From the IMG/VR virus record IMGVR_UViG_3300006919_012026, positions 1 to 41,760 of that record: a stretch of 41,760 nt of DNA; one strand, written 5' to 3'. The notes below the pieces were generated by a model, which was given only the letters and a program-made list of their open reading frames with translations, was not told the DNA's origin and ran no database searches. Positions 20,398 to 41,454 of the stretch are shown here, one piece after another. The translations under genes and the position numbers were made by a program. Position 1 is the stretch's first letter. Every line of letters starts with the position of its first letter. This stretch comes from a virus.

Positions 20398-20755
20398 TTT
20401 AAGTGATGTTTCAGAATCTTATGATTTCTTTACTGGTGTGCCAGATAGTAGATTGAAACCATTCATAAAAGAAATAGAAGATTCACCTTTCAAACACATA
20501 CCAGCTTTGAATGAAGGACAGGCTATTGGTATTGCAGTTGGTGCAGAGTTAGCTGGTATGAAGAGTTGTGTTTACTTACAAAATTCAGGACTTGGTAATT
20601 GTATAAATGCTTTAACAAGTCTTTGTATACCACATAATATACACCCACTTTTGGTGATAGGACATAGAGAAGGATTGCCACAACATAAGGTTATGGGTGA
20701 AGTGGATGAGAAGATGTTAAAATTAATTGGATATATGGATTATATAATAGTATGA
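20390..20755 (+). CDS. ppd: Phosphonopyruvate decarboxylase, alpha (PYR-domain) subunit
   Basis: A 121-aa protein equal to the N-terminal half of Ppd/AepY. FFTGVPDS (13-20) and NEGQAIGIAVG (41-51) with Glu42, the residue expected to activate thiamine diphosphate, are followed by YLQNSGLGN (62-70) and the LLVIGHREG loop. The shortened QHKVMGEVD replaces the fuller DEPQH loop. The other half is encoded by the next gene with a four-base overlap (ATGA), the split seen in sulfopyruvate decarboxylase ComD/ComE. Decarboxylation to phosphonoacetaldehyde makes the PEP mutase reaction irreversible, so its position right after pepM is expected. Confidence 0.9.
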   Translation: MISLSDVSESYDFFTGVPDSRLKPFIKEIEDSPFKHIPALNEGQAIGIAVGAELAGMKSCVYLQNSGLGNCINALTSLCIPHNIHPLLVIGHREGLPQHKVMGEVDEKMLKLIGYMDYIIV

Positions 20756-21210
20756 ATAGTAGAGATTCTGTATTAAGAACCATTTATAGTTACCACGACA
20801 ATGGAACAATATTTATCACTAGCACAGGTTATATTTCTAGAGCTATGTATAATTTGTATCCAGATAATAAAAATATATTCTATATGCAGGGAAGTATGGG
20901 TTTAGCTCCGTGTATTGGATTGGGTATGGCTGCTAATACAGACAAAAAGGTAGTTGTAATAAGTGGTGATGCAGCTTTACTAATGCACTTAGGTATAACA
21001 CACACTATAGCTGAACATAAATTAGATAACCTTTTTGTTTATGTTTTGGATAATGGTTGTCACGAATCAGTTGGTGGGTTTAAGTGTGCTGAATTAGATG
21101 AAAGTTATAAAGGTGTAAATAAAATATTCAAAATCAATAAGGATGGTAAAACAGAAAGAGTTGGTTTAGATTGTTTTCAAAATACGAAACAAATAAAGGA
21201 GTTATTTTGA
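20752..21210 (+). CDS. ppd: Phosphonopyruvate decarboxylase, beta (PP-domain) subunit
   Basis: A 152-aa protein equal to the C-terminal half of Ppd. FYMQGSMGLAPCIGLGMA is followed by the thiamine-diphosphate and metal motif SGDAALLMHLG (71-81, Asp73) with Asn101 at the end of the VYVLDN strand, then the Ppd-specific HESVGGF. With the preceding PYR subunit it should form an alpha2beta2 enzyme. A second, independent proof of the split is that neither gene alone has both cofactor half-sites. The stop overlaps the TTG start of the dehydrogenase gene. Confidence 0.9.
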   Translation: MNSRDSVLRTIYSYHDNGTIFITSTGYISRAMYNLYPDNKNIFYMQGSMGLAPCIGLGMAANTDKKVVVISGDAALLMHLGITHTIAEHKLDNLFVYVLDNGCHESVGGFKCAELDESYKGVNKIFKINKDGKTERVGLDCFQNTKQIKELF

Positions 21211-21983
21211 GAGGATATAGTGGCACACTTTTAGTATGTTCCGAATCCACTAAAGATTTTATGAATGGATTTGATAAAGTCAGAGTTGTAAAAGGAGCGC
21301 CCGATGTTAGTATTTTAGATGAAGTCGGTGCTTACGAAAAAGTTACAGCTATAGGTGGTGGTGCTGTAATAGATACTGCCAAAATATTATCTAAGAATCC
21401 TATAGTAGCTTATCCAACTACAGCATCAGGTGCTACAGAAACTTCTTGGTCTGTGTATTGGGATGGGGATAATAAGATGAGTCTAAAAAGACTTAAACCG
21501 AGAGAGGTTATAATAAACTCAGACTTTTTAAATTTACCAAAAAAAGTTATAAGGAGCACAACTTGTGATGTTGTAAGTCACTTTTTAGACAGTATGTTTT
21601 CAAAGAAGTCAACAGAAGTTAGTGAAGATTATTGTGATAGAGGGTTGAGTCTTCTTAGAAGAAAAGGTAGTATCGTAGATTTAATAAGAGCTGGTAGATT
21701 GGGTGGTAAAGCTATAGAGATAACTGGAACTAACTTACTACACTCACTATCTTATCCACTAACAGGTATTTATGGAACACCACATGGAGAGGCTTTAGGA
21801 TATTTTTTACCAAAAGTATCAAAATTTATGGGAGTGGATGTCAGCGACATAACAGAGGAAGTGAACTTATCAACTTGTAGAGTAGATATGGAACTAATCA
21901 TAGATGAGGCTCTAAAATATAATAAGATTCACGAATGTAATATATTTATTAATAAATCAATTTTAATGGAGGTTTTAATATGA
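21207..21983 (+). CDS. Iron-type alcohol dehydrogenase, probable phosphonoacetaldehyde reductase
   Basis: Group III (iron-dependent) alcohol dehydrogenase of 258 aa. GGGAVIDTAKILS (50-62) is the NAD(P) loop; PTTASGATETSW precedes the metal ligands Asp121 and His125 (DVVSH), His179 (LLHS) and His193 (GTPHGEAL), spaced 14 apart as in FucO. All four ligands are present although the protein is about 100 residues shorter than usual. PhpC and FomC of this family reduce phosphonoacetaldehyde to 2-hydroxyethylphosphonate, and its position after Ppd fits that. The TTG at 21207 is chosen because AAAGGAG ends 5 bases before; an upstream in-frame TTG at 21171 lacks a site. Confidence 0.82.
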   Translation: MRGYSGTLLVCSESTKDFMNGFDKVRVVKGAPDVSILDEVGAYEKVTAIGGGAVIDTAKILSKNPIVAYPTTASGATETSWSVYWDGDNKMSLKRLKPREVIINSDFLNLPKKVIRSTTCDVVSHFLDSMFSKKSTEVSEDYCDRGLSLLRRKGSIVDLIRAGRLGGKAIEITGTNLLHSLSYPLTGIYGTPHGEALGYFLPKVSKFMGVDVSDITEEVNLSTCRVDMELIIDEALKYNKIHECNIFINKSILMEVLI

Positions 21984-25531: not shown

Positions 25532-26174
25532 AGCAGGCGAAACAATGAGACTTGAAGAAGTCAGAGATATGGGCATCAATCCAAATGCTATATTAGATAT
25601 AGGAGCTCACACAGGACAATTTCATAGTTGGTCTAAAAGAGTTTGGCCTGATGTTGGTGTATTTATGATAGAGGCTAATCCACTACACGAAAGTCACTTA
25701 GATAAACTAGCTATGATGAATGGTGATAACTATTTAATAGCTGCTTTAGGAGATGAAGAAAGGGAAGTTACTTTTTACACCCGAAGTGACAAACCACACA
25801 CAGAGGGTAACTCATACTACAAAGAAGCTAACTATTGGGATATACCACAGTTAGTGCAAGAAAGCAAAATAAAATTGAAAAAATTAGATAATATTTTTGA
25901 AGATGAGGCTACCTTTGAACTAATTAAAATAGACACACAAGGTTCTGAATTAGATATATTAAAAGGTGGTAAAGAATTAGTCAAAAGAGCTTTAGCAGTT
26001 GTTTTAGAGGTATCTCTCATAGAATATAATGAGGGTGCGCCTTCAGCTGAAGAGACTATAAACTATATGAATAAAATTGGTTTTGAAGAGAGAATGAGTA
26101 TCGGAGAACATTACGATGGTGAAACCATAGTTCAAAAAGATATACTATTTACAAATAAGGAGTTAGTTAAATGA
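25524..26174 (+). CDS. FkbM-family methyltransferase
   Basis: A 216-aa class I SAM methyltransferase. The SAM loop is LDIGAHTGQF (24-33), followed by VFMIEANPLHESHL, ALGDEEREVTFYTRSD, LDNIFEDEATFELIKID and TQGSELDILKGG, all in FkbM order. FkbM enzymes in surface-glycan loci usually O-methylate a sugar hydroxyl. GGAG lies 7 bases before the ATG at 25524; a second in-frame ATG at 25545 is possible. It overlaps the gene on each side and is one of six methyltransferase domains in the island. Confidence 0.88.
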   Translation: MYRAGETMRLEEVRDMGINPNAILDIGAHTGQFHSWSKRVWPDVGVFMIEANPLHESHLDKLAMMNGDNYLIAALGDEEREVTFYTRSDKPHTEGNSYYKEANYWDIPQLVQESKIKLKKLDNIFEDEATFELIKIDTQGSELDILKGGKELVKRALAVVLEVSLIEYNEGAPSAEETINYMNKIGFEERMSIGEHYDGETIVQKDILFTNKELVK

Positions 26175-27358
26175 AGAAAGAGTTTTTAGATTTAGGTAGA
26201 CAACCTATAGCAAATAAGTTTTTAAGAGAAGAAGAAATTAATGATGAGTTCTTCTTTGATTTAAAAGTAGTTTTTGATGAAGAGACTAAATTAGTTTCTA
26301 TGAAGGACTTCGTAAAGCCAGAGTTGATGTTCAATGAAGATTACAAATACAATACATCATTGTCTACACCAATGGTTAATCACTTCAGAGATACTGCACA
26401 AATGTTAGATGAAAGGTTTAAACCTAATAAAGTATTGGAGATAGGTTCTAATGACGGTCCTTTCATAAGTAATTTTGAAAAAGAAAATTCTATTTGTGTA
26501 GAACCTTGTGATAATTTTGCAAAGATTACAGCAGATATGGGATACAGAACAAGAACAGAGTTTTGGACAACAGAACTTTCTGAACAGATAAAATCATCTG
26601 ATGGTGAAATGGACTTAATTTACTCTGCTAATTGTATATGCCACATACAAGACTTAGATGATTGTTTTTCAGCAGTCGCTAACTTACTTAGTGATAAAGG
26701 AGTGTTTGTATTTGAAGACCCATCTTTGCTTAGGATGTTAGAAAGAGGTTCATATGACCAAATATATGACGAACACGCGCATGTATTTTCAGTCACAGCA
26801 CTCGATAATATTTTAAGAAAGAATGGTTTGATTATATTTGATGTTGACAACTTATCAGTTCACGGTGGTTCTAATAGAATCTATGCTAAAAAACCAAATA
26901 TTCCATCTAACAATACTATAAGTGAAAATGTTCACAACAATCTAAAAGAGGAAGAATCTTTTGGAGTTGGTAATTTTGAAACATATGAAATATTTGCTAA
27001 AAGAGTTAAAGACTCAAAAGATGAATTAGTCAGATGTTTGAGCAATCTAAAACATAATGGTAAATCAATAATCAGTATTGGTGCCACATCAAAGTCTACC
27101 ACTGTATTTAATTACTGTGGTATCGATAGTTCTTTGATTGATTGTATCACAGACACAACGCCCGATAAACAGAACTTACTTGCGCCTGGTAGTCACATAC
27201 CTGTTGTAGATAGAGAGTCGGTAAATCTAAATGACTATGACTATGCTTTCTTAGGTGCTTGGAACTTCAAAGAAGTTATCGCTAATAAAGAATCTGATTT
27301 TGTTCAGAATGGTGGACAATTCATAACGCATGTACCAAAAATAATGATGTTTTCGTAA
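26171..27358 (+). CDS. Sugar C-methyltransferase, TylC3/NovU/TcaB9-like
   Basis: A 395-aa protein with the three-part plan of deoxysugar C-methyltransferases: an N-terminal segment containing FLDLGRQPIANKFL, a SAM domain with VLEIGSNDGPF (88-98) and YDEHAHVFS (the conserved EH catalytic region), and a C-terminal Methyltransf_14-like domain with SIGATSKSTTVFNYCGI. The family acts on 4-keto-6-deoxy nucleotide sugars to place a branch methyl at C3 or C5. The usual N-terminal zinc-binding CxxC pair is missing, since the protein starts just before DLG-x-QP, so either zinc is dispensable or the N terminus is trimmed. It precedes a cupin gene, suggesting joint tailoring of one sugar. Confidence 0.85.
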   Translation: MKKEFLDLGRQPIANKFLREEEINDEFFFDLKVVFDEETKLVSMKDFVKPELMFNEDYKYNTSLSTPMVNHFRDTAQMLDERFKPNKVLEIGSNDGPFISNFEKENSICVEPCDNFAKITADMGYRTRTEFWTTELSEQIKSSDGEMDLIYSANCICHIQDLDDCFSAVANLLSDKGVFVFEDPSLLRMLERGSYDQIYDEHAHVFSVTALDNILRKNGLIIFDVDNLSVHGGSNRIYAKKPNIPSNNTISENVHNNLKEEESFGVGNFETYEIFAKRVKDSKDELVRCLSNLKHNGKSIISIGATSKSTTVFNYCGIDSSLIDCITDTTPDKQNLLAPGSHIPVVDRESVNLNDYDYAFLGAWNFKEVIANKESDFVQNGGQFITHVPKIMMFS

Positions 27359-27369
27359 AGGAGAATGAT

Positions 27370-27753
27370 ATGTATTATAATGAAGATGATAGAGCTCAAA
27401 GGTTATTAGATGTCTTTGAAGTTTTAGATGGACAGATAAATGTTTCGTATGTTAATAGTACAGAACATATTGTAGCTTGGCACAAACACGATATACAATC
27501 TGATTACTGGACTTGTATAAAAGGTTCTTTTAAAGTGGGAATGGCTACGGAAGAAGATGGTTGTGAATTTGTATATCTTTCAGATAAGAATCCACAAGTG
27601 ATTGAGATGAAGCCAGGTGTGTATCACGGATACAAAGCACTGGAACCGGGCTCTATATTATTGTATTATTTAACAGAAAAATACAATCCAAATGATGAGT
27701 TTAGAGCACCAGTTGGACATTTTGGAGAAGAGTGGGGAAGAGCAAATAAATGA
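27370..27753 (+). CDS. Cupin, RmlC-like dTDP-sugar epimerase
   Basis: A 127-aa cupin. AWHKHDIQSDYWTCIKGSFK (36-55, His38 and His40) is followed by NPQVIEMKPGVYHGYKAL (His86) and SILLYYLTEKYNPNDEFR. That order (His-x-HxQxDYW, then PGVYHGY) is close to the dTDP-4-keto-6-deoxyglucose 3,5-epimerase RmlC, which epimerises C3 or C5. It is shorter than RmlC (about 180 aa), so it may be a 3- or 5-epimerase of narrower scope. AAAGGAG precedes the ATG. Likely works with the C-methyltransferase before it and the RmlD-like reductase at 30531. Confidence 0.75.
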   Translation: MYYNEDDRAQRLLDVFEVLDGQINVSYVNSTEHIVAWHKHDIQSDYWTCIKGSFKVGMATEEDGCEFVYLSDKNPQVIEMKPGVYHGYKALEPGSILLYYLTEKYNPNDEFRAPVGHFGEEWGRANK

Positions 27754-28631: not shown

Positions 28632-29045
28632 ATGACAACAATTGATGATGTAAAAAGATTTAACCTAAAGTTCTTTGATGAGCCAGATGGTAGATTAGCA
28701 CCAATTGAATTTGGTAAAGATGTACCATTTGAAGTGAAAAGAATGTTCTATGTGTTTGATGTACATAATCAAAATGACAGAGGAAAGCACAGTCATTACA
28801 AAACCAAACAATTACTGATTTCTATAAAAGGTTCTGTCAATGTTAAATGTTTAGATGGTATGGGTGGAGTCGGAGAGTGGCAACTTAAAACACCTTGGAG
28901 TGCTTTATACATACCCGAAATGATTTGGGATGAACAAATATATGATTCTAAAGATTCTATATTATTAGTGTTGTCAAATACAAATTACGATCCTTCTGAT
29001 TATATAGATGATTGGGAAGAATTTAGGAGAATAAAGAATGGCTGA
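28632..29045 (+). CDS. FdtA/QdtA-type dTDP-sugar 3,4-ketoisomerase
   Basis: A 137-aa cupin that matches FdtA and QdtA. RGKHSHYKTKQLLISIKGSV (50-69; His53, His55), TPWSALYIPEMIWDEQIY and the C-terminal SILLVLSNTNYDPSDYI are all hallmark stretches. The enzyme shifts the keto group of dTDP-4-keto-6-deoxyglucose from C4 to C3, giving the substrate for a C3 aminotransferase. With RmlB at 37491 and the DegT aminotransferase at 32183 this predicts a dTDP-3-amino-3,6-dideoxyhexose (Fuc3N or Qui3N type). GAGG lies 11 bases before the ATG. Which epimer is made cannot be told. Confidence 0.88.
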   Translation: MTTIDDVKRFNLKFFDEPDGRLAPIEFGKDVPFEVKRMFYVFDVHNQNDRGKHSHYKTKQLLISIKGSVNVKCLDGMGGVGEWQLKTPWSALYIPEMIWDEQIYDSKDSILLVLSNTNYDPSDYIDDWEEFRRIKNG

Positions 29046-29724
29046 AACACCTGTTAAAAAAGAAGATGATTGGAGAATGAGAGGAACTATAACTCATTGT
29101 CATACACCATATCCGTGGATGACTATAGAAAATTTCCATCCGTCAGAACCGATGGTAAGAGCAGCTGCAGAGAGCTTTGATGATGTAAAAGATTGGGTTC
29201 ATTATGGTGGTGGAGAAGATGGACAAATTCAATATTGTTCTAAGTTAGGTCGTGAAAATGTACCGCCACCTGCATTACTTTTATTAGATTATATAGCAAC
29301 ACATTTAAACCCTGATTTAATGATGGGGTTCGATACTAAATGTTTTCCCGATATGTCTCACTATGGTGGTGGTATGATGATTACACCTAACAGAAATGAT
29401 GAGGGTGGTTATTTAGGAATGCATGTTGATGCAAGTCATCACGGAATAAACAAAGATTGGAAAAGAGAGTTTAGTGCTATACTTTGTCTGTCAGAAGATT
29501 ATGATTCATCTTTTGATTTGGTTGTTAATGATGGGAAAAGAAAAGGAACTATACCTTATAAATTTAACCAACTGAATGTATTCAAATGTTCTGAAAACTC
29601 GTGGCATGGATTGCCTGAAATATCAAAGGGCAAGGATAGAAAAACTTTAGGTGTTATGTTTTGGTCTAAAGATGAAGAAGGAAAACAAATAAAAGCAAAA
29701 TTCAATAAAAATTTGGAGTGGTAA
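29038..29724 (+). CDS. 2-oxoglutarate/Fe(II)-dependent oxygenase
   Basis: A 228-aa double-stranded beta-helix enzyme. HxD is His129 and Asp131 (GMHVDAS), the distal His is His190 (SWHGLPE) and the 2OG-binding Arg is Arg201 (DRKTLGVMFW). All four catalytic residues are present. Such enzymes hydroxylate sugars, peptides or DNA bases, and in phosphonate pathways related ones hydroxylate phosphonates. Here the neighbours are sugar-modifying genes, so a deoxysugar or glycan hydroxylation is the first guess. A good ribosome-binding site (AGGAG) precedes the ATG. Confidence 0.85.
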   Translation: MAETPVKKEDDWRMRGTITHCHTPYPWMTIENFHPSEPMVRAAAESFDDVKDWVHYGGGEDGQIQYCSKLGRENVPPPALLLLDYIATHLNPDLMMGFDTKCFPDMSHYGGGMMITPNRNDEGGYLGMHVDASHHGINKDWKREFSAILCLSEDYDSSFDLVVNDGKRKGTIPYKFNQLNVFKCSENSWHGLPEISKGKDRKTLGVMFWSKDEEGKQIKAKFNKNLEW

Positions 29725-29725
29725 T

Positions 29726-30538
29726 ATGGCAAAAGTATTAGATTTAGATAAATATAAAGCTGGAATAGGAACTTCTAGTGAACCGTGGTGGAAAGATACT
29801 GATGAATCACCAAAAGAACTTTGGGATAAAGTCTACAAAGACAATTATTTGAATTGGTGGCATCCTGATTCTAAGAGTGGTGAAGGAACTGTAAAACAGG
29901 CTGAAAGAAGAATAGGAATAATAAATGATATTGTAAAAGAATATGATATTAAAACAGTAATGGATATTGGATGTGGAGATTTGTATTGGGCTACTAGATT
30001 AGACTTTAGAAACATAACAAGATATGCTGGGTTAGATGTTTCATCTGAATGTGTTGCTCAAAACTTATACAAAGAAACAAAAATATTAGAGATGTACCAA
30101 TGTGATATTACAAATCCAGAAGACAATAGAAGATTTCACTTTGCTAGAACATTTACACATAGACAAAAAGGTTGGGATTTAGTTCTTTTATTTGATATAT
30201 TAAATCATTGTATTCAATCAGAGATAGAAGAGATAATTAGTTTTCTAAAGAAAGCAGATGTTAAGTATGTTTTAACTAACAACTTTTCTCTAAAAAGAAT
30301 GGAATGGGAGAACAACGAGTTTGAAAACACTCCCGAAGAAACAGGTATTTGGTGGCCAGGCCATTGGGATGGTAAAACAAAAGATGTTAGAAATATGCCA
30401 GTTAATTTAGATTTACATCCAGATTGGAACTACAAAAAAGTATTTTCTGATGAAGAGTTTCACCTAACGACATCAGAAAGTGGAACGCAAATGCCACAAG
30501 GAAATGAATGTATAGAACTTTATAAACTTAATGACTAA
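29726..30538 (+). CDS. SAM-dependent methyltransferase
   Basis: A 270-aa protein. Helical N-terminal part (SSEPWWKDTDESPKELWDKV), then VMDIGCGDLYWATRLDF (motif I), YAGLDVSSECVAQNLY with the acidic residue after strand 2, and DLVLLFDILNHC (motif IV). Further on are VLTNNF and the acidic C-terminal strand. Resembles phage and bacterial glycan-locus methyltransferases; the substrate is unknown. GGAG precedes the ATG at 29726, only two bases after the oxygenase stop, so the two may act on the same product. Confidence 0.8.
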   Translation: MAKVLDLDKYKAGIGTSSEPWWKDTDESPKELWDKVYKDNYLNWWHPDSKSGEGTVKQAERRIGIINDIVKEYDIKTVMDIGCGDLYWATRLDFRNITRYAGLDVSSECVAQNLYKETKILEMYQCDITNPEDNRRFHFARTFTHRQKGWDLVLLFDILNHCIQSEIEEIISFLKKADVKYVLTNNFSLKRMEWENNEFENTPEETGIWWPGHWDGKTKDVRNMPVNLDLHPDWNYKKVFSDEEFHLTTSESGTQMPQGNECIELYKLND

Positions 30539-31268
30539 AATATTAATAACAGGTGGTGATGGTGAGTTTTGTAAACACTTAGTTAGAGAAGGAAAAGATT
30601 TATCATTTCTAACACCATCTAAAAAAGAAGCTGATATAAGAGATTATTGGCAGTTAGACAGATACTTTTATACACATCAATCTGAGTTTGATGTGGTGAT
30701 TCACGCAGGCGCTATAACAAGACCAATGGTTATACACGAAGATAATCCAAAGTTAAGTATAAAAACAAATATAATTGGCACCTCTAATGTTGTTTTGATG
30801 TGTGAGAGATACAATAAAAAAATAGTGTACATATCTACTGATTACGTTTATGAGGGAACAGATGGTAATTACAAAGAGAAAGATGCTTTAAAACCATTCA
30901 CAAAATATGGTTGGTCTAAATTAGGTGGAGAGTGTGCTGTTCAAATGTATGATAATCATTTAATATTAAGAATGGCTATGAATAAAAAACCATTTCCACA
31001 TCCAAAAGCTCTGATAGATATGAAAAAAAGTTTAATGTGGATTAAAGATGCTGCGAGTGTTACTTTGAAATTATTGGATGAAACTGGCACAATTAATGTT
31101 GGTGGTAAATCACAATCCGTTTATGATTTTGTAAAAGAAGAAAACCCTAAAATAAAACCAATTTTATTAGATGATATACCTGATGTAAATATGGCTACAG
31201 ATTGTTCTATGGATACGACAAAAATGAAAATGTTACTAAAAATGAAAAAGGTAATAAGTGAGCATTAA
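30531..31268 (+). CDS. SDR, dTDP-4-dehydrorhamnose reductase (RmlD)-like
   Basis: Extended SDR of 245 aa. NAD(P) loop TGGDGEFC (7-14), VVIHAGAITRP, STDYVYEG (102-109) and catalytic Tyr126 and Lys130 (KYGWSK) in RmlD order. RmlD reduces the C4 keto group to finish dTDP-6-deoxyhexoses. It is shorter than usual RmlD (about 290) with a brief C-terminal substrate domain. Probably the reductase partner of the RmlC-like cupin at 27370 and RmlB at 37491. Overlaps the next gene by 11 bases. Confidence 0.8.
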   Translation: MTKILITGGDGEFCKHLVREGKDLSFLTPSKKEADIRDYWQLDRYFYTHQSEFDVVIHAGAITRPMVIHEDNPKLSIKTNIIGTSNVVLMCERYNKKIVYISTDYVYEGTDGNYKEKDALKPFTKYGWSKLGGECAVQMYDNHLILRMAMNKKPFPHPKALIDMKKSLMWIKDAASVTLKLLDETGTINVGGKSQSVYDFVKEENPKIKPILLDDIPDVNMATDCSMDTTKMKMLLKMKKVISEH

Positions 31269-32208
31269 AAGTTATATAGGAAAAAAGAAAGTATGTGTAG
31301 TTGGACACAATGGTTATGTTGGTTCTACACTTTACAATTCACTGCTTGATAATGGTGTGGTGGTAACAAAAATAGATGATTTGGATATTAGTAATCCAAA
31401 CGATCCTTTATGGGAACTTTTTGAAATATATCGATTTGATGTTATATTTTGGTTAGCCTCAGCTGATTTATCTTCTATACCGAGTAATATGAAAGAGAAG
31501 GATATTGATGGTTTACTCAAAGAAAGAGATGTTAATTGTGATTCTCTTTTATATTTACACAAAGCTCTTAATGGACAGACACCAACAATTGTATTTACCA
31601 GCTCTACAAACATCTATGGAGATGTATCAGAGAAAGTAGTTTCGGAAAATACAAATGAAAATCCACAAACCTTATGGCAATCTCATAAAATACTATCTGA
31701 AAATTACATAAAGATTTTGTTTCCAAACTCTATCTCTTTGAGAATACCGAACATATTTGGAATTATACCAAACTATAGTAATGAAAATACATACTTTAGA
31801 CCTGTAGTAAATAAAGTTATTCGTTGGGGTATTGAAAAAAGAAAGTTAATGTTATACAAAAATAAAAGTTGTTTTAGAGATTACCTACATATTTATGATC
31901 TGATAGAAGCTCTTTTATTAGCTGGTTTACAGAAATCAACTGAAAAAAGATATTATAATTTAGGTTGTGATAATAGCTTAACGATTGAAGACACTTGGAA
32001 TATTATAGCTGAGTGTCTTAACAATATACCTATAGAATATGATGATAGGGAATTAAGTGATATGGAAACTCGTAGTTTTACTTCAGATTATACTGAGTTC
32101 AAAAAGTTAACGGGGTGGAATCCTAAGTATACATTACGTTATGGTATAGAGGAAAGTATAGAACAAATAAAAAAGGTTATAAATGATTCAACTGTTTCAC
32201 ATAAATAA
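31258..32208 (+). CDS. Extended SDR (NAD-dependent epimerase/dehydratase) with altered active site
   Basis: A 316-aa protein with the NAD loop GHNGYVG (16-22), TSSTNIYGD (114-122), DYLHIYDLIEALLLAG and FTSDYTEFKKLTGWNPKYTL, clearly a nucleotide-sugar SDR. The YxxxK catalytic site is changed: the segment reads LWQSHK, with Trp140 where Tyr is expected and Lys144 in place. That loss predicts no normal dehydrogenase chemistry, or a different role for the pocket. The GTG start at 31258 has AAGGT upstream. The next gene overlaps it by 26 bases. Could be a non-redox or binding partner of the aminotransferase encoded next. Confidence 0.72.
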   Translation: MSIKSYIGKKKVCVVGHNGYVGSTLYNSLLDNGVVVTKIDDLDISNPNDPLWELFEIYRFDVIFWLASADLSSIPSNMKEKDIDGLLKERDVNCDSLLYLHKALNGQTPTIVFTSSTNIYGDVSEKVVSENTNENPQTLWQSHKILSENYIKILFPNSISLRIPNIFGIIPNYSNENTYFRPVVNKVIRWGIEKRKLMLYKNKSCFRDYLHIYDLIEALLLAGLQKSTEKRYYNLGCDNSLTIEDTWNIIAECLNNIPIEYDDRELSDMETRSFTSDYTEFKKLTGWNPKYTLRYGIEESIEQIKKVINDSTVSHK

Positions 32209-33115
32209 TCATACAATAGATACTTCAGAGTTTAGTAATTTACTACACGATGAAATAGTAATTGAATACGAAAAAGAGATAGCTAGTTATGTTGGTGCTA
32301 AATATGCTTGTGCGGTAAATAGTGCAACTAACGCTATATATCTGATAATGAAGATGGAAGAGTTTTACAAACCTCGTGTGATAACTATTCCAAGCATAAT
32401 CCCGCCTGTAGTTGCTAACGCCATAATAACAAGTGGTAATACAGTTAGATTTAGTGACGATGTGGATTGGGTTGGTGACTCTTACATTCTACATAAATTC
32501 AGAGAATACAAAGTTGTCGATTCTGCTCAAAAATTAGAACCACAACAATTTACAAAAGAGTGTGAACCAAATGATATTATGTTTTTTAGTCACTATCCAA
32601 CAAAACCTTTAGGTGGAGCTGATGGTGGAGTAATTGTTACAGATGATTACAACAAATATAAGTGGATGAAAGAAGCTGTTCTAAATGGAACAACGTTTGC
32701 TAATAACAATTGGGAAAGAGGTATATCTTTTCCTGGTTATAAGTTTTATATGAGTTCCATTCAAGCAAAAATAGTTATGAATAACTTTGTAAACTTTGAC
32801 AAAAAAATGAGAGGTTTAGGTAGTTTGGTTGATACTTATAATAAAGAATTAGGTTATAATAATACGAGTAAACATTTGTATAGAATAGAAGTTTTAGATA
32901 ATAAGAAATTCGTAGACAATATGAGAAGAGCTGGTATAGTATGTGGTATACATTATTCGGCTCTTCACAATAATTCAATATATCGTAATGAAGAAAAATT
33001 TGATTGTCCTAAATCAGAAAAAGTAGAGAAAAGAACTGTTAGTTTACCTATGAATGAGAGATTGAGTTTTAATCAATTAGAGTACATAATTGACAAAGTA
33101 AAGGAGAATATCTAA
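32183..33115 (+). CDS. DegT/DnrJ/EryC1/StrS PLP-dependent sugar aminotransferase
   Basis: A 310-aa PLP enzyme. ALK-like start, CAVNSATNAIYLIM (43-56), the VVDSAQ motif (111-116; Asp113 and Gln116 contact the PLP pyridine) and the Schiff-base Lys141 in SHYPTKPLGGADGG. That corresponds to the SFHATK-x-L-x-GEGG region of FdtB, DesV and similar. It should transfer an amino group to a 3-keto or 4-keto nucleotide sugar. With the FdtA-type isomerase at 28632 and RmlB at 37491, dTDP-3-keto-6-deoxyhexose is the likely substrate. It is somewhat short (family about 370), the C-terminal domain being trimmed. Confidence 0.82.
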   Translation: MIQLFHINNHTIDTSEFSNLLHDEIVIEYEKEIASYVGAKYACAVNSATNAIYLIMKMEEFYKPRVITIPSIIPPVVANAIITSGNTVRFSDDVDWVGDSYILHKFREYKVVDSAQKLEPQQFTKECEPNDIMFFSHYPTKPLGGADGGVIVTDDYNKYKWMKEAVLNGTTFANNNWERGISFPGYKFYMSSIQAKIVMNNFVNFDKKMRGLGSLVDTYNKELGYNNTSKHLYRIEVLDNKKFVDNMRRAGIVCGIHYSALHNNSIYRNEEKFDCPKSEKVEKRTVSLPMNERLSFNQLEYIIDKVKENI

Positions 33116-33711
33116 TGTCAGACTTTTATCTTAGTGACAGAGAGTTTAACGGTCCTCGTGATAAGGGAAAGTTAGAGCCAGTATACACTAAACTTTATGA
33201 GTTGGTAAAAGATATTAAACCTAATAATATAGTTGAGTTAGGAGTTGGTTCGGGTGCCTGTACTGTTGCTATGACTAGAGGATTGGAACAAGCAAATCCT
33301 AATGGTAGATTGATTGGATTCGATACTTTTACTGCTTGGGGTGGAATCAAAACAGTATATCAGAAATTACTATCACGAAGCCTAAACAATTTCATAGATG
33401 ATATGAGAGAGGGTAGTGTATTTGATTTATGGGTAAGTAATCCAACTGATTTTGATTTTTTGTGGATAGATATCGACAACACTTGGAAAAGTGTATATGA
33501 TGTTGTTTTTGGTAATGAGAAGATACTAAACCAAATAAAAGATGGTAGTCCTGTTTATATAGAAGGTGGTGCTGATGCACATCCTCGAATGAATAAAAAT
33601 ACTCTCAATGATTTTCACAATAGTTTGGGTAAAGAAATTTTCAGTTTTGAAGTTCTTTCAGGTTTAAGAGTTAGTATCTCAAAATTAGAAATAAATTGGG
33701 ATTTAGTATGA
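33115..33711 (+). CDS. Class I SAM methyltransferase, Methyltransf_24-like
   Basis: A 198-aa protein with NNIVELGVGSGACTVAMTRG (motif I), GRLIGFDTFTAWGG (strand 2 and acidic residue) and DFDFLWIDIDNTWKSVYDVV (the metal or catalytic DxD region). Its overall plan is that of cephalosporin-hydroxylase- or Methyltransf_24-like proteins common in polysaccharide loci. AAAGGAG precedes the ATG, one base after the aminotransferase stop overlap. Its TGA overlaps the ATG of the next gene. Confidence 0.72.
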   Translation: MSDFYLSDREFNGPRDKGKLEPVYTKLYELVKDIKPNNIVELGVGSGACTVAMTRGLEQANPNGRLIGFDTFTAWGGIKTVYQKLLSRSLNNFIDDMREGSVFDLWVSNPTDFDFLWIDIDNTWKSVYDVVFGNEKILNQIKDGSPVYIEGGADAHPRMNKNTLNDFHNSLGKEIFSFEVLSGLRVSISKLEINWDLV

Positions 33712-34631
33712 AAAAAATATTAGTATTAGCAACTGGTTGGCATTTTAGTTCTCATTTTTATGAAGAGATGGTTAAACAAAAAGTGCCTGATGGTTGGGAA
33801 GTTGATTACTTTTGTATCGCACATAGAGCGCCTGAAGATGATAATACCATAACTGAAAAACAATACATAAGAGATTCAGAGCCTGAAAACTTCTTAAATG
33901 AGATGGATAAACAAATGTATGAGTATCCAATAACTGAAGAAGATTTAACTAATTTAGGATGGATTTATTTGTTGGAAGATAATACTTGTTGTGATGGTGA
34001 AATATTCAATCAATGGGCAGACAATAAAAATCATAACTATGAGGACTATGATATAATATGTTTAACTCACGATGATAACTACATACTATCAGATAATCTG
34101 TTTATGGATATGTTAGAAAACAACATTAAAATACATAAACCTATAATAGAAAGTAGGTATGGTAGAGCTAAACATCAGTTCCATACTGAAGAAGTTGCTA
34201 TCAATGATATTGATTGGATGTTTATAGAGAATGGTTATAGTGAACACGTTCCAAAAGCTTTTACACCAAGATCTTCTTTCTGTTTCTTCAAAAAAGAATT
34301 GGTTGATTTACTACCTAATAATAGATTTGATATTACAGAAACAGCTACTGGTGGTAAGTTGATGAGTAGAGTTGGAGAAACAAAAAGTTTTGATAATCAT
34401 ATGGATTTAAATGATTGGAATAGTCCTGTTGGAACATTGAGAGAATGGTTGTACAATGTGAAGCCGGATTTAGGAATGTTAAATCATTGTGGTTGGTTTT
34501 CAGTATCAGCTCAAAGAGTTAGTCGTTATTGTATAGAAGGAGAAAGAGGACTTGTCAGTAAACATCAAAGTGATTGTGGTAAATACATACCAATGTTACA
34601 GAAAGAATTAGAAGAAATAGGGATGCTTTAG
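33708..34631 (+). CDS. GT-A-like glycosyltransferase, unassigned family
   Basis: A 307-aa protein. Start at ATG 33708 (overlapping the previous TGA) rather than the in-frame TTG at 33696, which has no ribosome-binding site. KKILVLATGWHFSSHFYEEM opens a Rossmann-like half, and DYDIICLTHDDNYILSDNLF gives a DxD-like HDDN that fits a GT-A metal site. TPRSSFCFFKKELVDLLPNN and a conserved-looking NHCGWFSVSAQRVSRYCIEG follow. The family is not recognised; a transferase function is inferred from motif shape and the run of GT genes around it. Confidence 0.5.
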   Translation: MKKILVLATGWHFSSHFYEEMVKQKVPDGWEVDYFCIAHRAPEDDNTITEKQYIRDSEPENFLNEMDKQMYEYPITEEDLTNLGWIYLLEDNTCCDGEIFNQWADNKNHNYEDYDIICLTHDDNYILSDNLFMDMLENNIKIHKPIIESRYGRAKHQFHTEEVAINDIDWMFIENGYSEHVPKAFTPRSSFCFFKKELVDLLPNNRFDITETATGGKLMSRVGETKSFDNHMDLNDWNSPVGTLREWLYNVKPDLGMLNHCGWFSVSAQRVSRYCIEGERGLVSKHQSDCGKYIPMLQKELEEIGML

Positions 34632-35368
34632 TGGATATAAGAACACCAATAATTCACGATAGACATTTAGTCAAAGAAGCTTTTGAGGTTCTAAAAAGTC
34701 AGACAGAACCTAATATATTTACACATCCGAAAGATTTGACAATATTGACTTGTAGAAATGAAGGTTCATTAGAAGACAGAATTATAGATAGTTTAGTTGG
34801 ATATGATAAGATTTCTATATTAGAGGCTAATACAAAATATTTAGGTTTAGATTTAGTCGTTCTAAAAGATGCTAGATTACCTTGGAGAAACACATTTAAA
34901 TTTGAAATGATTAATGATTATCTCCAATCAGGCAAATGTACTACAGAATATTTTATGTTTTGTGATGCTGTTGATGTTATATTTGTAGACCATCCAAATA
35001 AAGTTATTGATATATTTAAATCTTTTAATTGTCAAGCTTTGTTTATGTCTACCTCTTCATTAGATGGATATAATTGTATGCCAGAGGTATTGAATTGGGT
35101 TCATAATATTAATGGAGGAATACCTCGTTATCTAAATAGTGGTGTTTACATTGGTAAGACATCTTTTGTCAAAGAGCTATTTGAGATGGCTATGGAGTAT
35201 GCTTTACCACACGGAGTTATTATGGATGAATACAGAGAATACTTAGCCAAAGAACCAAAGGACTATCCGCATGGCTCACAAGACCAAGACATAATCAGAT
35301 ATTTAGAACCAAAACTTTATCCAAGATTAAAGGTGGATTACGAAAATAAAATGGCGTTTAGGAGTTAG
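34631..35368 (+). CDS. PLOD-like/GT25-like glycosyltransferase
   Basis: A 245-aa GT-A-fold protein. Key parts are LTILTCRNEGS, ANTKYLGLDLVVL, YFMFCDAVDVIFVDHPN (Asp112 and Asp115 as the metal site), RYLNSGVYIGKTSFVKELF and GSQDQDIIRYL. The order is that of the glycosyltransferase domain of procollagen lysyl hydroxylase-type (PLOD) enzymes and relatives found in large DNA viruses and surface-glycan loci. GTG start at 34631, one base overlapping the previous TAG. Donor (glucose or galactose in known relatives) not predicted with confidence. Confidence 0.75.
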   Translation: MDIRTPIIHDRHLVKEAFEVLKSQTEPNIFTHPKDLTILTCRNEGSLEDRIIDSLVGYDKISILEANTKYLGLDLVVLKDARLPWRNTFKFEMINDYLQSGKCTTEYFMFCDAVDVIFVDHPNKVIDIFKSFNCQALFMSTSSLDGYNCMPEVLNWVHNINGGIPRYLNSGVYIGKTSFVKELFEMAMEYALPHGVIMDEYREYLAKEPKDYPHGSQDQDIIRYLEPKLYPRLKVDYENKMAFRS

Positions 35369-35369
35369 A

Positions 35370-36281
35370 TTGAAAGTAGCTTTCTTTTCAGAAACAGGTA
35401 ATAATCAGAAGTATCCACGAGACTTTCCAAATGCTCGTACAGAGGTGGCTTGGTGTTTAGCTTTAGATGCTCCGATGTGTCACCTACAACATTTACCTAA
35501 TGAAAGGTTTGATTTAGGAATTGTTATTATTCCTAAAAACAATCCTATTGTGGATTTAAATCATATCAGAACTATTTGTGATAATGTTGCTGTGATGCAA
35601 GAAGGCCCACATTGGTTCTTTCAAGATTACACTGTAGAACAACAATTTCATTATTACAATACCTTAGTTGACGCAGATTGGGTTTACTGCCACAATGAAT
35701 CAGATGTGAATTACTTTTTAGGTTTAGGTTGTAAAGATGTGAGAGTTATGAGAAGTCTAATGATTACTGATGGATTCAACAGAAGAGAGTTCGGTTGGAA
35801 TGATAGCGTAATGATTGGTGGTAACTTTGTTAGTTGGTATGGTGGATTTGATTCTTACATAGTAGCTAGTGAAATAGGATACCCTATGTCAGCACCATCG
35901 ATGGGTAGAAAACAAAAGCAAGAAGATGCTATTGAAGACATAGATTATCTACCTTATATGAATTGGAGAGATTGGTTAGATACATTAGGTGGTTTTAGTA
36001 TAGGTGTTCATTTAATGAGAACACACGCAGCTGGCACATTCGCTATGAATTGTGGGTTTCACGGAACACCTTGTATTGGTTACAAAGGATTAGATACGCA
36101 AGAGATACTACACCCACTAACTACAGTTGAAGTTGGTGATTTAGATGGAGCTAAAGAAATTGCTAGAAAACTAAGGTCACAAAAGTTTTGGGATTTGTGT
36201 AGTGATACGATACTCAAAAGATTTGAACAAAACTATACAGAAGAAAAATGGAAAGAAAATTGGAGAGTTACAAATGGATGA
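35370..36281 (+). CDS. GT-B-like glycosyltransferase
   Basis: A 303-aa protein. KVAFFSETGNNQKYPRDFPN resembles GT-B starts, FDLGIVIIPKNNPI follows, and ADWVYCHNESDVNYFLGLG with VRVMRSLMIT marks the end of an N-terminal half. The C-terminal half has THAAGTFAMNCGFHGTPCIG, the donor-side T-x-G-F-x-E-A-type loop without Glu, then a final helix (KFWDLCSDTILKRFEQNYTEEKW) typical of GT4. It has a TTG start at 35370 with GGAG 6 bases upstream. Its two-domain shape supports GT-B; the family is not certain. Confidence 0.65.
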   Translation: MKVAFFSETGNNQKYPRDFPNARTEVAWCLALDAPMCHLQHLPNERFDLGIVIIPKNNPIVDLNHIRTICDNVAVMQEGPHWFFQDYTVEQQFHYYNTLVDADWVYCHNESDVNYFLGLGCKDVRVMRSLMITDGFNRREFGWNDSVMIGGNFVSWYGGFDSYIVASEIGYPMSAPSMGRKQKQEDAIEDIDYLPYMNWRDWLDTLGGFSIGVHLMRTHAAGTFAMNCGFHGTPCIGYKGLDTQEILHPLTTVEVGDLDGAKEIARKLRSQKFWDLCSDTILKRFEQNYTEEKWKENWRVTNG

Positions 36282-37503
36282 TAGAATTATAAGTTTTATA
36301 CAACCGAGTAGAAACAATTTAAAGTACCTTAAATGGTCTTACAATAGTATCCGTAAAAACTTAGGTTATCGTCACGAGATATGTTGGGCTGATGATTTCT
36401 CTGATGATGGAACTTGGGAGTGGATGCAGAAAACTGCTGAAAAAGATATGAATGTAAAAATTATGAGGAATGAAGGACCTGATAGGTTAGGACATACCAT
36501 ACTATATGATAAGTTGGTAGATATGGCTACAAGTGATATAGTAATGATATATCATGCGGATATGTATGCTTGTCCCGAGATGGATACAAACGTTCTAAAA
36601 CACCTACAGCGTGGTAAAGTCGTTTCAGCAACACGAATAGAGCCACCATTACATCCAGATGGACCTGAAAAGATATTGGTAGACTTTGGCATAGAACCAG
36701 AAGAGTTTGAAGAGGAGAAACTGATGGATTGGTTGCTAACTGATATGAAAGTCTCAACAAATGTGGGTAGAACTACTGAGGGAATATTTGCTCCGTGGGC
36801 TATATACAAAGATGATTTCTTGGCAATCGGTGGACACGATCCTCTGTACGCTCCACAATCAAAAGAGGACTCTGATATATTTAATAGGTTTGTATTAGCT
36901 GGATACGAAACAATACAGACTTGGCAAGGGTTTGTATATCATATGACTTGTAGAGGTAGTAGATTCAAAGATGGTGCTATGAGGAATCCAGCTGGACAAG
37001 TATTTATGAAAGGTAGAGAATCATCGGAGTGGTTGGCTCAGAATCTAAGGAGTACTCGTAACTTTATTCGTAAGTGGGGGCATATGGTAAATCACGACCA
37101 ATATCTAAAGCCTGTTATACCACCAAAATATGACATAGGATTTATTGTTAAGAATTGTGATAATAATATGTTGAATGAATTAGAACCTTGGTGTTCTGAT
37201 ATGTATGGTGATTGGGTTGGACACAAAGGATTTGGTGTAAATAAATATATTGAAGAAGAACAACCAAATACTCAATTTGATTTAAGTAAGAAGTTACACT
37301 CAATTCATACTGAAGCTACCAATGATGTGATAGTTAGATTTGACGCTCAAAAACTAACACCACAAAATTTTCAAATTATTGTCAAAATGTCTGAACTTTT
37401 AAAAGATAGTGGTGAGGTTGGTAATATGGAGTATGACATATTTGAGTTTGAAATTAAATCACTTAACACATACGAAAAGGATTTGATTATATGCGAATCT
37501 TAG
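36274..37503 (+). CDS. GT2-family glycosyltransferase
   Basis: A 409-aa protein. IISFIQPSRNNLKYLKWSYN opens a GT2-type GT-A domain; ICWADDFSDDGTWEWM and DIVMIYHADMYACPEMD (HADM as DxD variant) form the nucleotide-sugar site, followed by APWAIYKDDFLAIGGHDPLY and APQSKEDSDIFNRFVLAG with the ED acceptor-base motif. The C-terminal ~130 residues (from about YDIGFIVKNCDNNM) are a separate domain of unknown kind. ATG 36274 is preferred to the earlier in-frame GTG at 36202 because GGAGAG at 36262-36267 is its ribosome-binding site. Confidence 0.82.
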   Translation: MDDRIISFIQPSRNNLKYLKWSYNSIRKNLGYRHEICWADDFSDDGTWEWMQKTAEKDMNVKIMRNEGPDRLGHTILYDKLVDMATSDIVMIYHADMYACPEMDTNVLKHLQRGKVVSATRIEPPLHPDGPEKILVDFGIEPEEFEEEKLMDWLLTDMKVSTNVGRTTEGIFAPWAIYKDDFLAIGGHDPLYAPQSKEDSDIFNRFVLAGYETIQTWQGFVYHMTCRGSRFKDGAMRNPAGQVFMKGRESSEWLAQNLRSTRNFIRKWGHMVNHDQYLKPVIPPKYDIGFIVKNCDNNMLNELEPWCSDMYGDWVGHKGFGVNKYIEEEQPNTQFDLSKKLHSIHTEATNDVIVRFDAQKLTPQNFQIIVKMSELLKDSGEVGNMEYDIFEFEIKSLNTYEKDLIICES

Positions 37504-38414
37504 TTACTGGTGGTGCTGGTTTCATAGGTAGTAATTTCATAAAATATATGGTATCTAAGTATCCCAAATATCATATTTTATGCTATGATAAGTTAACATA
37601 TGCAGGTAACTTAGATAGGTTAGATTCAACTGATGGTTTAATTAGTTACTTTGTCGAAGGAGATATTTGTAACGAAGAATTTTTGGATTGGGTAATAGAT
37701 GAAGCTAAGATAGATACAATTGTTAACTTTGCTGCAGAGACGCACGTTGATAATAGTATAGAAAGTTCTGATGAGTTTATAAAAACAAATATAAATGGAA
37801 CTCATACACTACTAAAAATGCTACACAAATATGAAATCAAAAAGTTTGTACAAATATCCACAGATGAAGTTTATGGGGCATTGTCAGAAAATGATAAGCC
37901 ATTCACAGAGAACACACCATTAGCACCTAACAGTCCATACTCTGCTAGTAAGACATCAGCTGATTTGTTATGTAGAAGTTTTTATGAGACTTACAAATAT
38001 CCGATTGTTATTACGAGGTGTTCTAATAATTATGGTTCTAACCAACACACCGAAAAGCTGATTCCAAAAATGATAGAAAATATAAAAAGTGGTAAGAAGA
38101 TTCCAATTTATGGTGATGGTAGAAACATCAGAGATTGGGTTCACGTTGAAGACCACTGTGAAGCTATTGATTTGGTATTACATAAAGGAAAAAATGGTGA
38201 GGTATATAATATAGGTGGAGAATGTGAGAAAAGAAATATAGACATAGCAAACATTGTTTTGTCACATCTAAACGCTTCTACTGATTTAATAGAATATGTA
38301 AAGGATAGGAAAGGGCACGATTGGAGATATGCTGTAGACATTACCAAAATAAAGAATGAGTTAGGTTGGTATCCCAAAAGAAAATTTAATGAAAGTATAA
38401 AGGAGTTAGTATGA
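37491..38414 (+). CDS. rmlB: dTDP-glucose 4,6-dehydratase
   Basis: A 307-aa RmlB. TGGAGFIGSNF at the start, YDKLTYAGNLDRL (the RmlB-specific loop), FAAETHVDNSI, STDEVYG (123-129; Asp125 and Glu126 in TDE do the dehydration) and the catalytic Tyr150 and Lys154 (YSASK). It converts dTDP-glucose to dTDP-4-keto-6-deoxyglucose, the branch point for the FdtA-type isomerase, the RmlC- and RmlD-like enzymes and the C-methyltransferase. Slightly short at the C terminus. No RmlA thymidylyltransferase is in the window, so dTDP-glucose would come from the host or elsewhere in the genome. Confidence 0.93.
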   Translation: MRILVTGGAGFIGSNFIKYMVSKYPKYHILCYDKLTYAGNLDRLDSTDGLISYFVEGDICNEEFLDWVIDEAKIDTIVNFAAETHVDNSIESSDEFIKTNINGTHTLLKMLHKYEIKKFVQISTDEVYGALSENDKPFTENTPLAPNSPYSASKTSADLLCRSFYETYKYPIVITRCSNNYGSNQHTEKLIPKMIENIKSGKKIPIYGDGRNIRDWVHVEDHCEAIDLVLHKGKNGEVYNIGGECEKRNIDIANIVLSHLNASTDLIEYVKDRKGHDWRYAVDITKIKNELGWYPKRKFNESIKELV

Positions 38415-40525: not shown

Positions 40526-40693
40526 ATGAGTGAGTTAACAAAAGAACAAAAAAAAGAATTAGAAAAGATAGCGGCTGAGATAGAGGCTGAGGCTATCCAA
40601 ATGAAATTAGACTATGAACAACACCCATCAGATATGAGTGGTAGCATAGTTGTTGTACACGAAGAATCAGAATACTTTGATGAGGAAGAGTGA
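40526..40693 (+). CDS. Small acidic protein, 55 aa
   Basis: ATG at 40526 is two bases after the previous stop; TGA at 40691-40693 overlaps the GTG start of the Mom-like gene. It reads MSELTKEQKKELEKIAAEIE and on through a Lys/Glu helix to an acidic end (EESEYFDEEE). One helix followed by an acidic tail is predicted. Its tight coupling to the Mom-like gene resembles the com-mom arrangement of phage Mu, but it lacks the zinc-finger cysteines of Com, so a regulatory role is only a thought. Confidence 0.6.
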   Translation: MSELTKEQKKELEKIAAEIEAEAIQMKLDYEQHPSDMSGSIVVVHEESEYFDEEE

Positions 40694-41454
40694 GTAAAAA
40701 ATATGTAGATACATCTAAACTATCTGTTAGAGAAATAGATAGGAAGATTGCTAAAAAGCTGATAGTTGAGAACCATTATTCACATCAATGGACAAAGTGT
40801 ACTCACGCTTTAGGTTTGTTTACCACAACGGGTAGAGAACACTCTTTTTTTGACGAACCTGAAGAGAAATTAATTGGGGCTATATGTTATGGAGACCCAA
40901 TAGGTAGGAACTCAGGCGCTTCGATATCATTAGCAGTACCGAGAACAGCGGTATTTGAATTAGTTAGATTATATGTGCACGATGGTTATGGAAGTAATAT
41001 AGAATCCTATTTGATAGGAGAGAGTTTCAGATGGTTAAAGAAGAATAGGCCGGATATAAAAGCTCTCATATCATATTCAGACCCAATGCAAGGTCATGTT
41101 GGAACTGTCTATCAGGCAACTAACTGGTTATATCAAGGTAATAATATAAGGTGGTCTGATAGTTGGTTATTTAAGTTTGAAGAGGATGGTAAGTGGCAGC
41201 ACGGAAGAACCATATTTCCTTACTATGGTACTAATGATATTAAGAAGATGAAAGGCTTAGTTAAGAATGACTTTTGGATAAAAAAGGAAGTAAAGAAACA
41301 TAGATATGTTTATCTGTTAGGAACTAAGGGAGAGAGAAAGAAAGCTTTAAGAAAAGTAAAACATCCGATTCTACCATATCCCAAAACAGGTGATATAATA
41401 GAATCAGAAGTAATAAAAGTAAAAGTACATAACTTTGGGAGGATAGATGGCTAA
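40690..41454 (+). CDS. Mom-like GNAT-fold DNA modification protein (copy 3)
   Basis: A 254-aa protein sharing with copy 1 (3449) the start KYVDTSKLSVREID, the VENHYSH block (His29, Tyr30), KLIGAICYGDPIGRN, FELVRLYVHDGYGSNIESYL, SYSDPMQGHVGTVYQATNW and LYQG, plus near-end HRYVYLLGTKGERKK. So copies 1 and 3 are recent paralogs, and copy 2 is more distant. Predicted role is adenine acylation of phage DNA to escape restriction. GTG start. It overlaps the next gene by eight bases. The family assignment rests on motifs read by eye. Confidence 0.65.
   Translation: MSKKYVDTSKLSVREIDRKIAKKLIVENHYSHQWTKCTHALGLFTTTGREHSFFDEPEEKLIGAICYGDPIGRNSGASISLAVPRTAVFELVRLYVHDGYGSNIESYLIGESFRWLKKNRPDIKALISYSDPMQGHVGTVYQATNWLYQGNNIRWSDSWLFKFEEDGKWQHGRTIFPYYGTNDIKKMKGLVKNDFWIKKEVKKHRYVYLLGTKGERKKALRKVKHPILPYPKTGDIIESEVIKVKVHNFGRIDG

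Follow-up and report, generated by a model that had tools for sequence, protein, structure and literature searches.

A recurrent FdtA-DegT gene pair in phages and a candidate route to a 3-amino-3,6-dideoxyhexose in a marine T4-like phage

Do phages make amino sugars of their own during infection, and from which sugar nucleotide would they start? This question is raised by IMG/VR virus record IMGVR_UViG_3300006919_012026, a linear virus fragment of 41,760 bases that was analysed over its whole length (hereafter the window). It carries genes for RmlB, the deoxythymidine diphosphate (dTDP)-glucose 4,6-dehydratase, for an FdtA-family sugar 3,4-ketoisomerase and for a compact DegT-family aminotransferase. 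The window comes from a bacteria-infecting, T4-like marine phage and encodes T4-type replication proteins, namely DNA polymerase, sliding clamp and clamp loader, the polymerase (PHROG 262, E 1e-185) being 46% identical to that of Microcystis phage Mel-JY01. A glycan cluster of 29 kb (approximately positions 10001-39307) comprises 35 plus-strand open reading frames of at least 80 amino acids, including glycosyltransferases, methyltransferases and short-chain dehydrogenases/reductases (SDRs), and several of the 35 match no Pfam family. An earlier sequence-only reading had combined the three genes into a pathway to 3-amino-3-deoxyfucose (Fuc3N) or 3-amino-3-deoxyquinovose (Qui3N), and profile matches confirmed that all three are intact reading frames, correctly placed and assigned to the right families.

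It is reasonably probable, in our view, that the window phage encodes a route to a nucleotide-activated 3-amino-3,6-dideoxyhexose. RmlB, by its family membership, would convert dTDP-glucose into dTDP-4-keto-6-deoxyglucose; the FdtA-type cupin, given its family and its conserved His pair, would shift the ketone from C4 to C3; and the DegT protein, in which the lysine for pyridoxal phosphate (PLP) is present, would put the amine on C3, a position suggested by its pairing with FdtA. The product may then be handed to a glycosyltransferase of the same cluster. Relatives without RmlB would need a 4-keto sugar supplied by the host.

A recurrent pair of isomerase and aminotransferase

Beside and between the three genes stand others that the sequence-only reading had passed over, i.e. 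a sugar C-methyltransferase, a short RmlC-like cupin (termed cupin2), a 2-oxoglutarate (2OG) oxygenase-like gene and a short RmlD-like reductase. The question which of these genes belong together was approached by profile scans of viral contigs. The scan with the DegT profile gave 137 confirmed loci, of which the best 80 were kept and underlie all DegT-seeded counts. FdtA was present within the locus in 79 of the 80 and on the same contig in 80/80; the exception (L031) begins at DegT and has its FdtA in another part of the contig (L213). In 43 of the 80 loci FdtA was found without C-methyltransferase and cupin2, mostly as directly adjacent DegT-FdtA genes, and a match to the RmlD-like reductase was also missing in 40 of these 43 pair-only loci. 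Near-duplicates are frequent among the loci, as are fragments among the contigs. When the DegT proteins were clustered at 70% identity, FdtA accompanied 35/35 clusters, the C-methyltransferase 14, and neither C-methyltransferase nor cupin2 occurred in 19; the two genes of the pair lay within 150 bases of each other in 20 of the 35. Seen from the other side, a DegT-family match occurred in 35 of the 41 loci found with the FdtA profile, including three full-length DegT proteins (L013, L222, L229), and the remaining six break off downstream of FdtA, at a distance of 0 to 4 kb.

The linkage was also visible in loci selected by a third gene. The scan with the C-methyltransferase profile (best 80 of 87 confirmed, representing 79 distinct viral loci) provided a test set of 48 loci flanked by 9 kb on either side, in which presence or absence of FdtA and DegT agreed in 45 (41 with both, four with neither; Fisher P 0.0004). 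The discordant loci have FdtA alone (L186, L188) or only a distant DegT match (L159). Moreover, the distances of FdtA and DegT were correlated among 58 representatives (Pearson r 0.54, reached in 0 of 2000 permutations; Spearman 0.29), to which shared phage ancestry partly contributes. From the linkage on all 80 contigs it follows that DegT most likely takes the 3-keto product of FdtA, and from the 43 pair-only loci that FdtA and DegT form a recurrent unit from which the C-methyl genes are separable. FdtA and DegT are the conserved unit; RmlB, a lineage-specific insertion as described below, is no part of it.

The isomerase gene of the window (28632..29045, plus strand) matches PF05523 with 129.7 bits (cut-off 23), and among solved structures in the PDB it comes closest to WxcM-like proteins and FdtA (E 2e-22 to 5e-22). 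All 185 phage FdtA rows of the alignment retain the catalytic His pair H53/H55, the counterpart of the residues exchanged in 2pae (H49N) and 2pak (H51N); some contigs contribute overlapping loci to these rows and to the 166 DegT rows. With ratios of non-synonymous to synonymous substitution rates (dN/dS) of 0.10-0.26 in four pairs, the gene looks to be under purifying selection. According to a review (PMC2943079), inverting and retaining sugar 3,4-ketoisomerases differ near the C4 oxygen at the position of FdtA His95, which is His in the former and Arg in the latter. By our count, His95 is the histidine in 'WHE' of the aligned 2pa7 sequence, the numbering of which is two higher than the published one. 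Unlike FdtA (His95) and QdtA (Arg97), the window isomerase has Asp100 at this position. Of the 185 phage rows, 168 have Asp as well and the other 17 have Gly, Ala or Leu, so that His or Arg occurs in 0/185. Since Gly occupies this position in 4zu4, a WxcM-like protein of solved structure, the His/Arg rule is perhaps not absolute. The double mutant of QdtA, 4zu7 (Y17R/R97...), has a second altered position; the window carries Asp19 there, and the residue varies among phages. With Asp100 at the deciding position, the isomerase does not allow a choice between Fuc3N and Qui3N, and the C4 configuration is therefore not callable. What stands of the earlier proposal is the FdtA-DegT partnership with a predicted 3-keto substrate and 3-amino-6-deoxy product, in agreement with the 80/80 contigs and the gene run of L298 described below.

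The aminotransferase gene (32183..33115, plus strand) matches PF01041 with 106.9 bits (cut-off 19.8). It encodes 310 residues only, the solved relatives shown having approximately 360-440. K141 and D113, together with several further conserved residues, are invariant in the 163 of 163 rows covering those columns (only rows above 40% identity were used, up to four of them being truncated and gapped), and dN/dS values of 0.08-0.17 in four pairs look like purifying selection here as well. In the dehydratase subgroup of the DegT family (ColD/E1-type) the PLP-binding lysine is replaced by histidine; lysine in all 163 covering rows speaks against membership in this subgroup. The structure model is of moderate quality (mean predicted local distance difference test score, pLDDT, 73.2), and its predicted fold, aligned with VIA-align, resembles aminotransferases of the DegT family (Z 24.8-22.6 over the 50 rows shown). 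The top five rows are the 3-amino-sugar enzymes WlaRG, WlaRF and QdtB (Z 24.8-24.6; 281-285 residues aligned, rmsd 2.9-3.3), with ArnB tying at 24.6. A profile search of solved chains leans to C3, since HCAN_0200, Pcryo_0616 and QdtB rank above ArnB and PseC; Pcryo_0616 and QdtB are C3 enzymes by their structure titles, and HCAN_0200 we take to be one. A clear split between C3 and C4 aminotransferases emerged neither by sequence nor by Foldseek or VIA-align.

The compact form was found in 0 of 398 bacterial genomes at E 1e-40, a search that covered one phylum, namely that of the Pelagibacteraceae genome behind locus L090, and that recovered 4/4 phage records as a control. The isolate-phage collection holds no close copy either (best 23.1% and 24.6% identity, depending on the query). 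Of its 50,697 records, six have an FdtA relative at E 1e-5, and one or three, again depending on the query, have a distant relative of DegT.

Sugar-nucleotide supply and competing explanations

RmlB (37491..38414, plus strand) matches TIGR01181 with 432.7 bits (cut-off 365.1; residues 2-306 aligned) and is the only one of six window SDRs tested that passes the cut-off of a 4,6-dehydratase equivalog. It sits between a glycosyltransferase and an SDR, the homologues of which overlap by 7-10 bases in nine of nine related loci, i.e. those holding both neighbours (DegT is nearly the same in L030 and L031 along most of its length). RmlB was therefore gained by the lineage of the window. A first FdtA scan of viral contigs had yielded 22 loci and the whole-record set comprises 25 including the window; in this set RmlB is over the cut-off in 1/25, the window itself. 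Three genes forming one conserved operon, as a further candidate, were thus rejected. Among the pair-only records, RmlB is over the cut-off in two of 43 and matches with at least 296 bits in six. Some of these show the pair beside its possible supply. DegT, FdtA, an RmlA-like and an RmlB-like gene are consecutive in L298, the best NCBIfam matches of the latter two staying under the cut-offs (TIGR01207 230.1 bits, cut-off 360.65; TIGR01181 309.3, cut-off 365.1), and L245 and the near-identical L246 have DegT-FdtA-RmlB with an RmlB of 416.8 bits, over the cut-off. These gene runs place the pair on dTDP-4-keto-6-deoxyglucose. In L026, RmlA-like (212.2 bits) and RmlB-like (313.1 bits) genes, both under the cut-offs, lie inside the module.

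The absence of RmlA and an N-acetyltransferase from the window, noted in the sequence-only reading, agrees with our searches of this record, which as a fragment leaves room for both genes elsewhere in the phage: the RmlA-type family PF00483 gives no match in the 41,760 bases, and Pfam recognises no N-acetyltransferase in the 35 cluster reading frames of 10001-39307. The free amine that this reading considered would depend on genes beyond the fragment as well, and the relative L013 has a NeuD/PglD-type acetyltransferase next to a full-length DegT. PF00483 occurs in two of the 25 records of the window's set, and at E 1e-15 it matched one of 33 records (32 of the 43 pair-only records and the window), the window not being matched. 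A relative of the guanosine diphosphate (GDP)-mannose dehydratase Gmd, with 382-404 bits (cut-off 415), is present in 13 of the 43 pair-only records. The dTDP carrier assumed earlier is therefore one that we infer for the window phage and do not extend to phages with the pair in general. Regarding this enzyme, the Gmd relative of L245 (12272-14455) has a frame of 727 amino acids, in which the match is split (profile 2-188 and 177-341) around a long insert, possibly an intein.

Several observations weigh against the proposed route. The isomerase carries Asp where the published rule wants His or Arg, so its reaction could differ. The C3 regiochemistry of DegT would follow from the gene pairing with FdtA, and other signals lean away from C3: Foldseek puts the C4 enzyme ArnB first, and the six NCBIfam matches of the window protein, all far below the cut-off, are to 4-amino-type models. 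RmlB is as scarce among the relatives as given above, a Gmd relative adjoins the pair in L252 and L244, and the numerous near-duplicate loci and fragmentary contigs count on this side as well. L186 and L188 have FdtA without DegT within the locus; the contigs of L188 and L189 hold a compact DegT approximately 40 kb or more from FdtA, and those of L186 and L187, which may be fragments, hold none. Because of L186-L189 we set our confidence slightly lower.

Some of these points feed other explanations. If a Gmd-type enzyme delivered GDP-4-keto-6-deoxymannose, FdtA and DegT would convert it to GDP-3-amino-3,6-dideoxymannose, a mycosamine-like sugar, and the RmlB of the window would serve another sugar. 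The Gmd relatives mentioned above and the FdtA residues near the sugar, which differ from those of the characterised dTDP enzymes, would fit this idea. However, the window, itself a fragment, has no Gmd-grade gene (best SDR 113.2 bits against a cut-off of 415), RmlA-like and RmlB-like genes (L298) or RmlB (L245, L246) follow directly after the pair, and none of the 12 solved FdtA relatives is named as a GDP-sugar enzyme, which makes a GDP route improbable. Even less probable, we think, are two separate branches, in which the RmlD-like SDR would reduce the 3-keto sugar of FdtA, while DegT would aminate the 4-keto sugar to a 4-amino-4,6-dideoxyhexose. Such a division would suit the position of the RmlD-like gene after FdtA in window-type loci, the FdtA and RmlD-like genes of L186 and L188 without a nearby DegT, and the ArnB and 4-amino-type matches of DegT. 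But a C4 aminotransferase would have no need of FdtA, and the usually adjacent pair does without C-methyltransferase and cupin2 in 43 of 80 loci and without the RmlD-like gene in 40 of these.

A more elaborate sugar, i.e. a C-methylated 3-amino-6-deoxyhexose on which the C-methyltransferase, the RmlC-like cupin, the 2OG oxygenase and the RmlD-like reductase would act as well, seems rather unlikely. It is favoured by the joint presence of cupin2 and FdtA in 39 of the 48 long-flank C-methyltransferase loci, by the solved relative TcaB9, which is named a sugar 3-C-methyltransferase, and by bacterial C-methyltransferase loci (best 80 of 261 confirmed, including Pelagibacteraceae and Prochlorococcus; L090, L109, L132), of which 21/80 have an FdtA match and 39/80 a DegT match. 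Yet the background is high in glycan clusters, the pair lacks these genes in the 43 loci, the C-methyltransferase occurs without the pair in L053, L150, L151, L154 and L193, and, as a matter of chemical logic, transamination at C3 leaves no ketone for C-methylation. Treating C-methyltransferase, cupin2, 2OG oxygenase and RmlD-like reductase as obligate parts was rejected on the same 43 of 80 loci. A bolder version of the proposed route, for which we see some but clearly not the larger chance, takes FdtA and the compact DegT as a phage-specific two-gene amino-sugar cassette with an isomerase chemistry of its own. Here the Asp would lead to a configuration at C4, or to a range of sugar nucleotides, that neither of the known classes covers, and phages would plug the pair into a 4-keto-6-deoxy dTDP or GDP sugar provided by host or phage, resulting in a phage-defined amino sugar on virions or host.

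Neighbouring and other genes of the glycan cluster

At the FdtA loci the genes follow the order C-methyltransferase, cupin2, FdtA, 2OG oxygenase, RmlD-like reductase and DegT, with insertions and some losses (L029 and L032 were left out of the synteny table). A DegT-family gene is present in 19 of the 25 whole records including the window, and the remaining six end near FdtA. In the window, all on the plus strand, the neighbouring and separable module starts with the TcaB9-type sugar C-methyltransferase (26171..27358; PF08421, PF13489, PF08484), the family profile of which finds the sugar 3-C-methyltransferase 5t64 (TcaB9) with E 8e-99. The short RmlC/WbuC-like cupin2 (27370..27753) stays below the cut-off of PF00908 (21.7 bits, cut-off 27); its family profile finds RmlC 1pm7 (E 5e-8), and its predicted fold, from a moderate model (mean pLDDT 73.3), resembles CapF, RmlC and ketoisomerases. 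The module further includes the 2OG-Fe(II) oxygenase-like gene (29038..29724; PF13640 33.2 bits, cut-off 27) and the short RmlD-like reductase (30531..31268; PF04321 103.8 bits, profile 2-149 of 287). A variable member is the SDR of the NAD-dependent epimerase/dehydratase family (31258..32208; PF01370 69.3 bits), of which a copy between the RmlD-like gene and DegT is shown in the synteny table only for L015.

In most of the 21 bacterial FdtA copies mentioned above the deciding isomerase position is Ala, Ser or Gly. L013 (4183-5973) has a full-length LegC/PseC-like DegT (253.7 bits, under the cut-off) beside C-methyltransferase, cupin2, FdtA and RmlD-like genes, by its sequence a different aminotransferase in the same slot, and next to it a NeuD/PglD-type acetyltransferase (195.1 bits, cut-off 160.8). 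L053 is binned in the metagenome-assembled genome 'bacterium TMED198'; its clamp loader is 90% identical to that of the window, its C-methyltransferase 67% and its glycosyltransferases 37-76%, so that we regard it as a probable phage contig that ended up in a bacterial bin.

Other modifications may be encoded as well. Positions 19096-21983 of the window hold a cytidylyltransferase-phosphoenolpyruvate (PEP) mutase fusion (TIGR02320 368.4 bits, cut-off 319.55), whose EDKIGNKRNS stretch we take to be the EDKxxxxxNS motif, together with matches under the cut-offs to a split phosphonopyruvate decarboxylase (alpha and beta) and a short PsrA-like Fe-dependent alcohol dehydrogenase. Judged by these families, this is apparently a phosphonate (C-P) route. 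All four genes recur in six of 24 related viral loci (L007, L014, L015, L017, L023, L025; L014 and L015 look alike), and 15 records of the isolate-phage collection match the region, most of which is covered by only two of them, faecal 'Bacteriophage sp.' fragments. The genes suggest a hydroxyethylphosphonate activated by cytidine monophosphate (CMP) for glycan decoration; marine bacteria have been proposed to deploy phosphonoglycoproteins against phages (PMC8931226). Furthermore, the window has three paralogues of the DNA-modification protein Mom (3449-4216, 6593-7213 and 40690-41454; PF25680 150-160 bits; PHROG 1384). A heptose-kinase-like gene (5139-5906; TIGR02198 120.1 bits, cut-off 345) and an ADP-heptose-epimerase-like gene (17145-17954; TIGR02197 174.6 bits, cut-off 274.6) hint at a heptose in the same glycan.

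Meaning and relation to known systems

Since DegT and FdtA recur together across otherwise different phages, we suggest that phages make the amino sugar themselves. If this is true, the presence of the pair in 35 DegT clusters of 70% identity would imply de novo synthesis of an amino sugar in the course of infection by many phages that have not been cultured. Such a sugar could serve to mask either the virion or the surface of the host. Being so small, the pair lends itself to testing in one tube, and its Asp variant offers a natural series on what sets the C4 stereochemistry in 3,4-ketoisomerases.

The full gene list of the bacterial surface-layer and O-antigen pathways to dTDP-Fuc3NAc and dTDP-Qui3NAc, the N-acetylated forms, comprises five enzymes starting from glucose-1-phosphate. 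The window resembles these pathways in having RmlB, a 3,4-ketoisomerase and a DegT-family aminotransferase together, with His pair and PLP lysine kept. It differs from them in being phage-borne, in the 310-residue aminotransferase, and in that RmlA and an acetyltransferase were not found in the fragment. Of the bacterial enzymes, FdtA, QdtB and QdtC are named in PMC2943079. The ketoisomerases and 3-amino-sugar aminotransferases of Campylobacter jejuni (WlaRA/WlaRB and WlaRG/WlaRF) are a similar combination and among the nearest solved structures; however, they are bacterial, and WlaRG and WlaRF are full-length aminotransferases with approximately 20% identity.

Among phages, RmlB is matched at E 1e-30 by 200 records of the isolate-phage collection, some of them weaker epimerase matches. 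Escherichia phage phAPEC8 shares dTDP-sugar genes with the window. Its annotated run consists of a nucleotide-sugar epimerase (the RmlB match), glucose-1-phosphate thymidylyltransferase, 3,5-epimerase and a second nucleotide-sugar epimerase, which we read as a rhamnose-type route, whereas neither FdtA nor an aminotransferase is annotated in the 14.9 kb shown. RN05-S has RmlB-like, RmlC and epimerase genes with DegT further on. The single-cell marine virus AG-345-F15 resembles the window in its marine origin and in carrying RmlB together with a DegT aminotransferase. Its run RmlA-RmlB-RmlC-DegT (RmlA and RmlC identified by inspecting the translations) differs by an RmlC-like gene in the place of FdtA and by a full-length DegT that is 23-25% identical to the compact ones. 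No description of the FdtA-DegT pair in phages was found among the literature listed, as judged by titles and the beginnings of abstracts. Nucleotide-sugar pathways carried by phages are already known, and we rate the FdtA-DegT pair as a new form of them.

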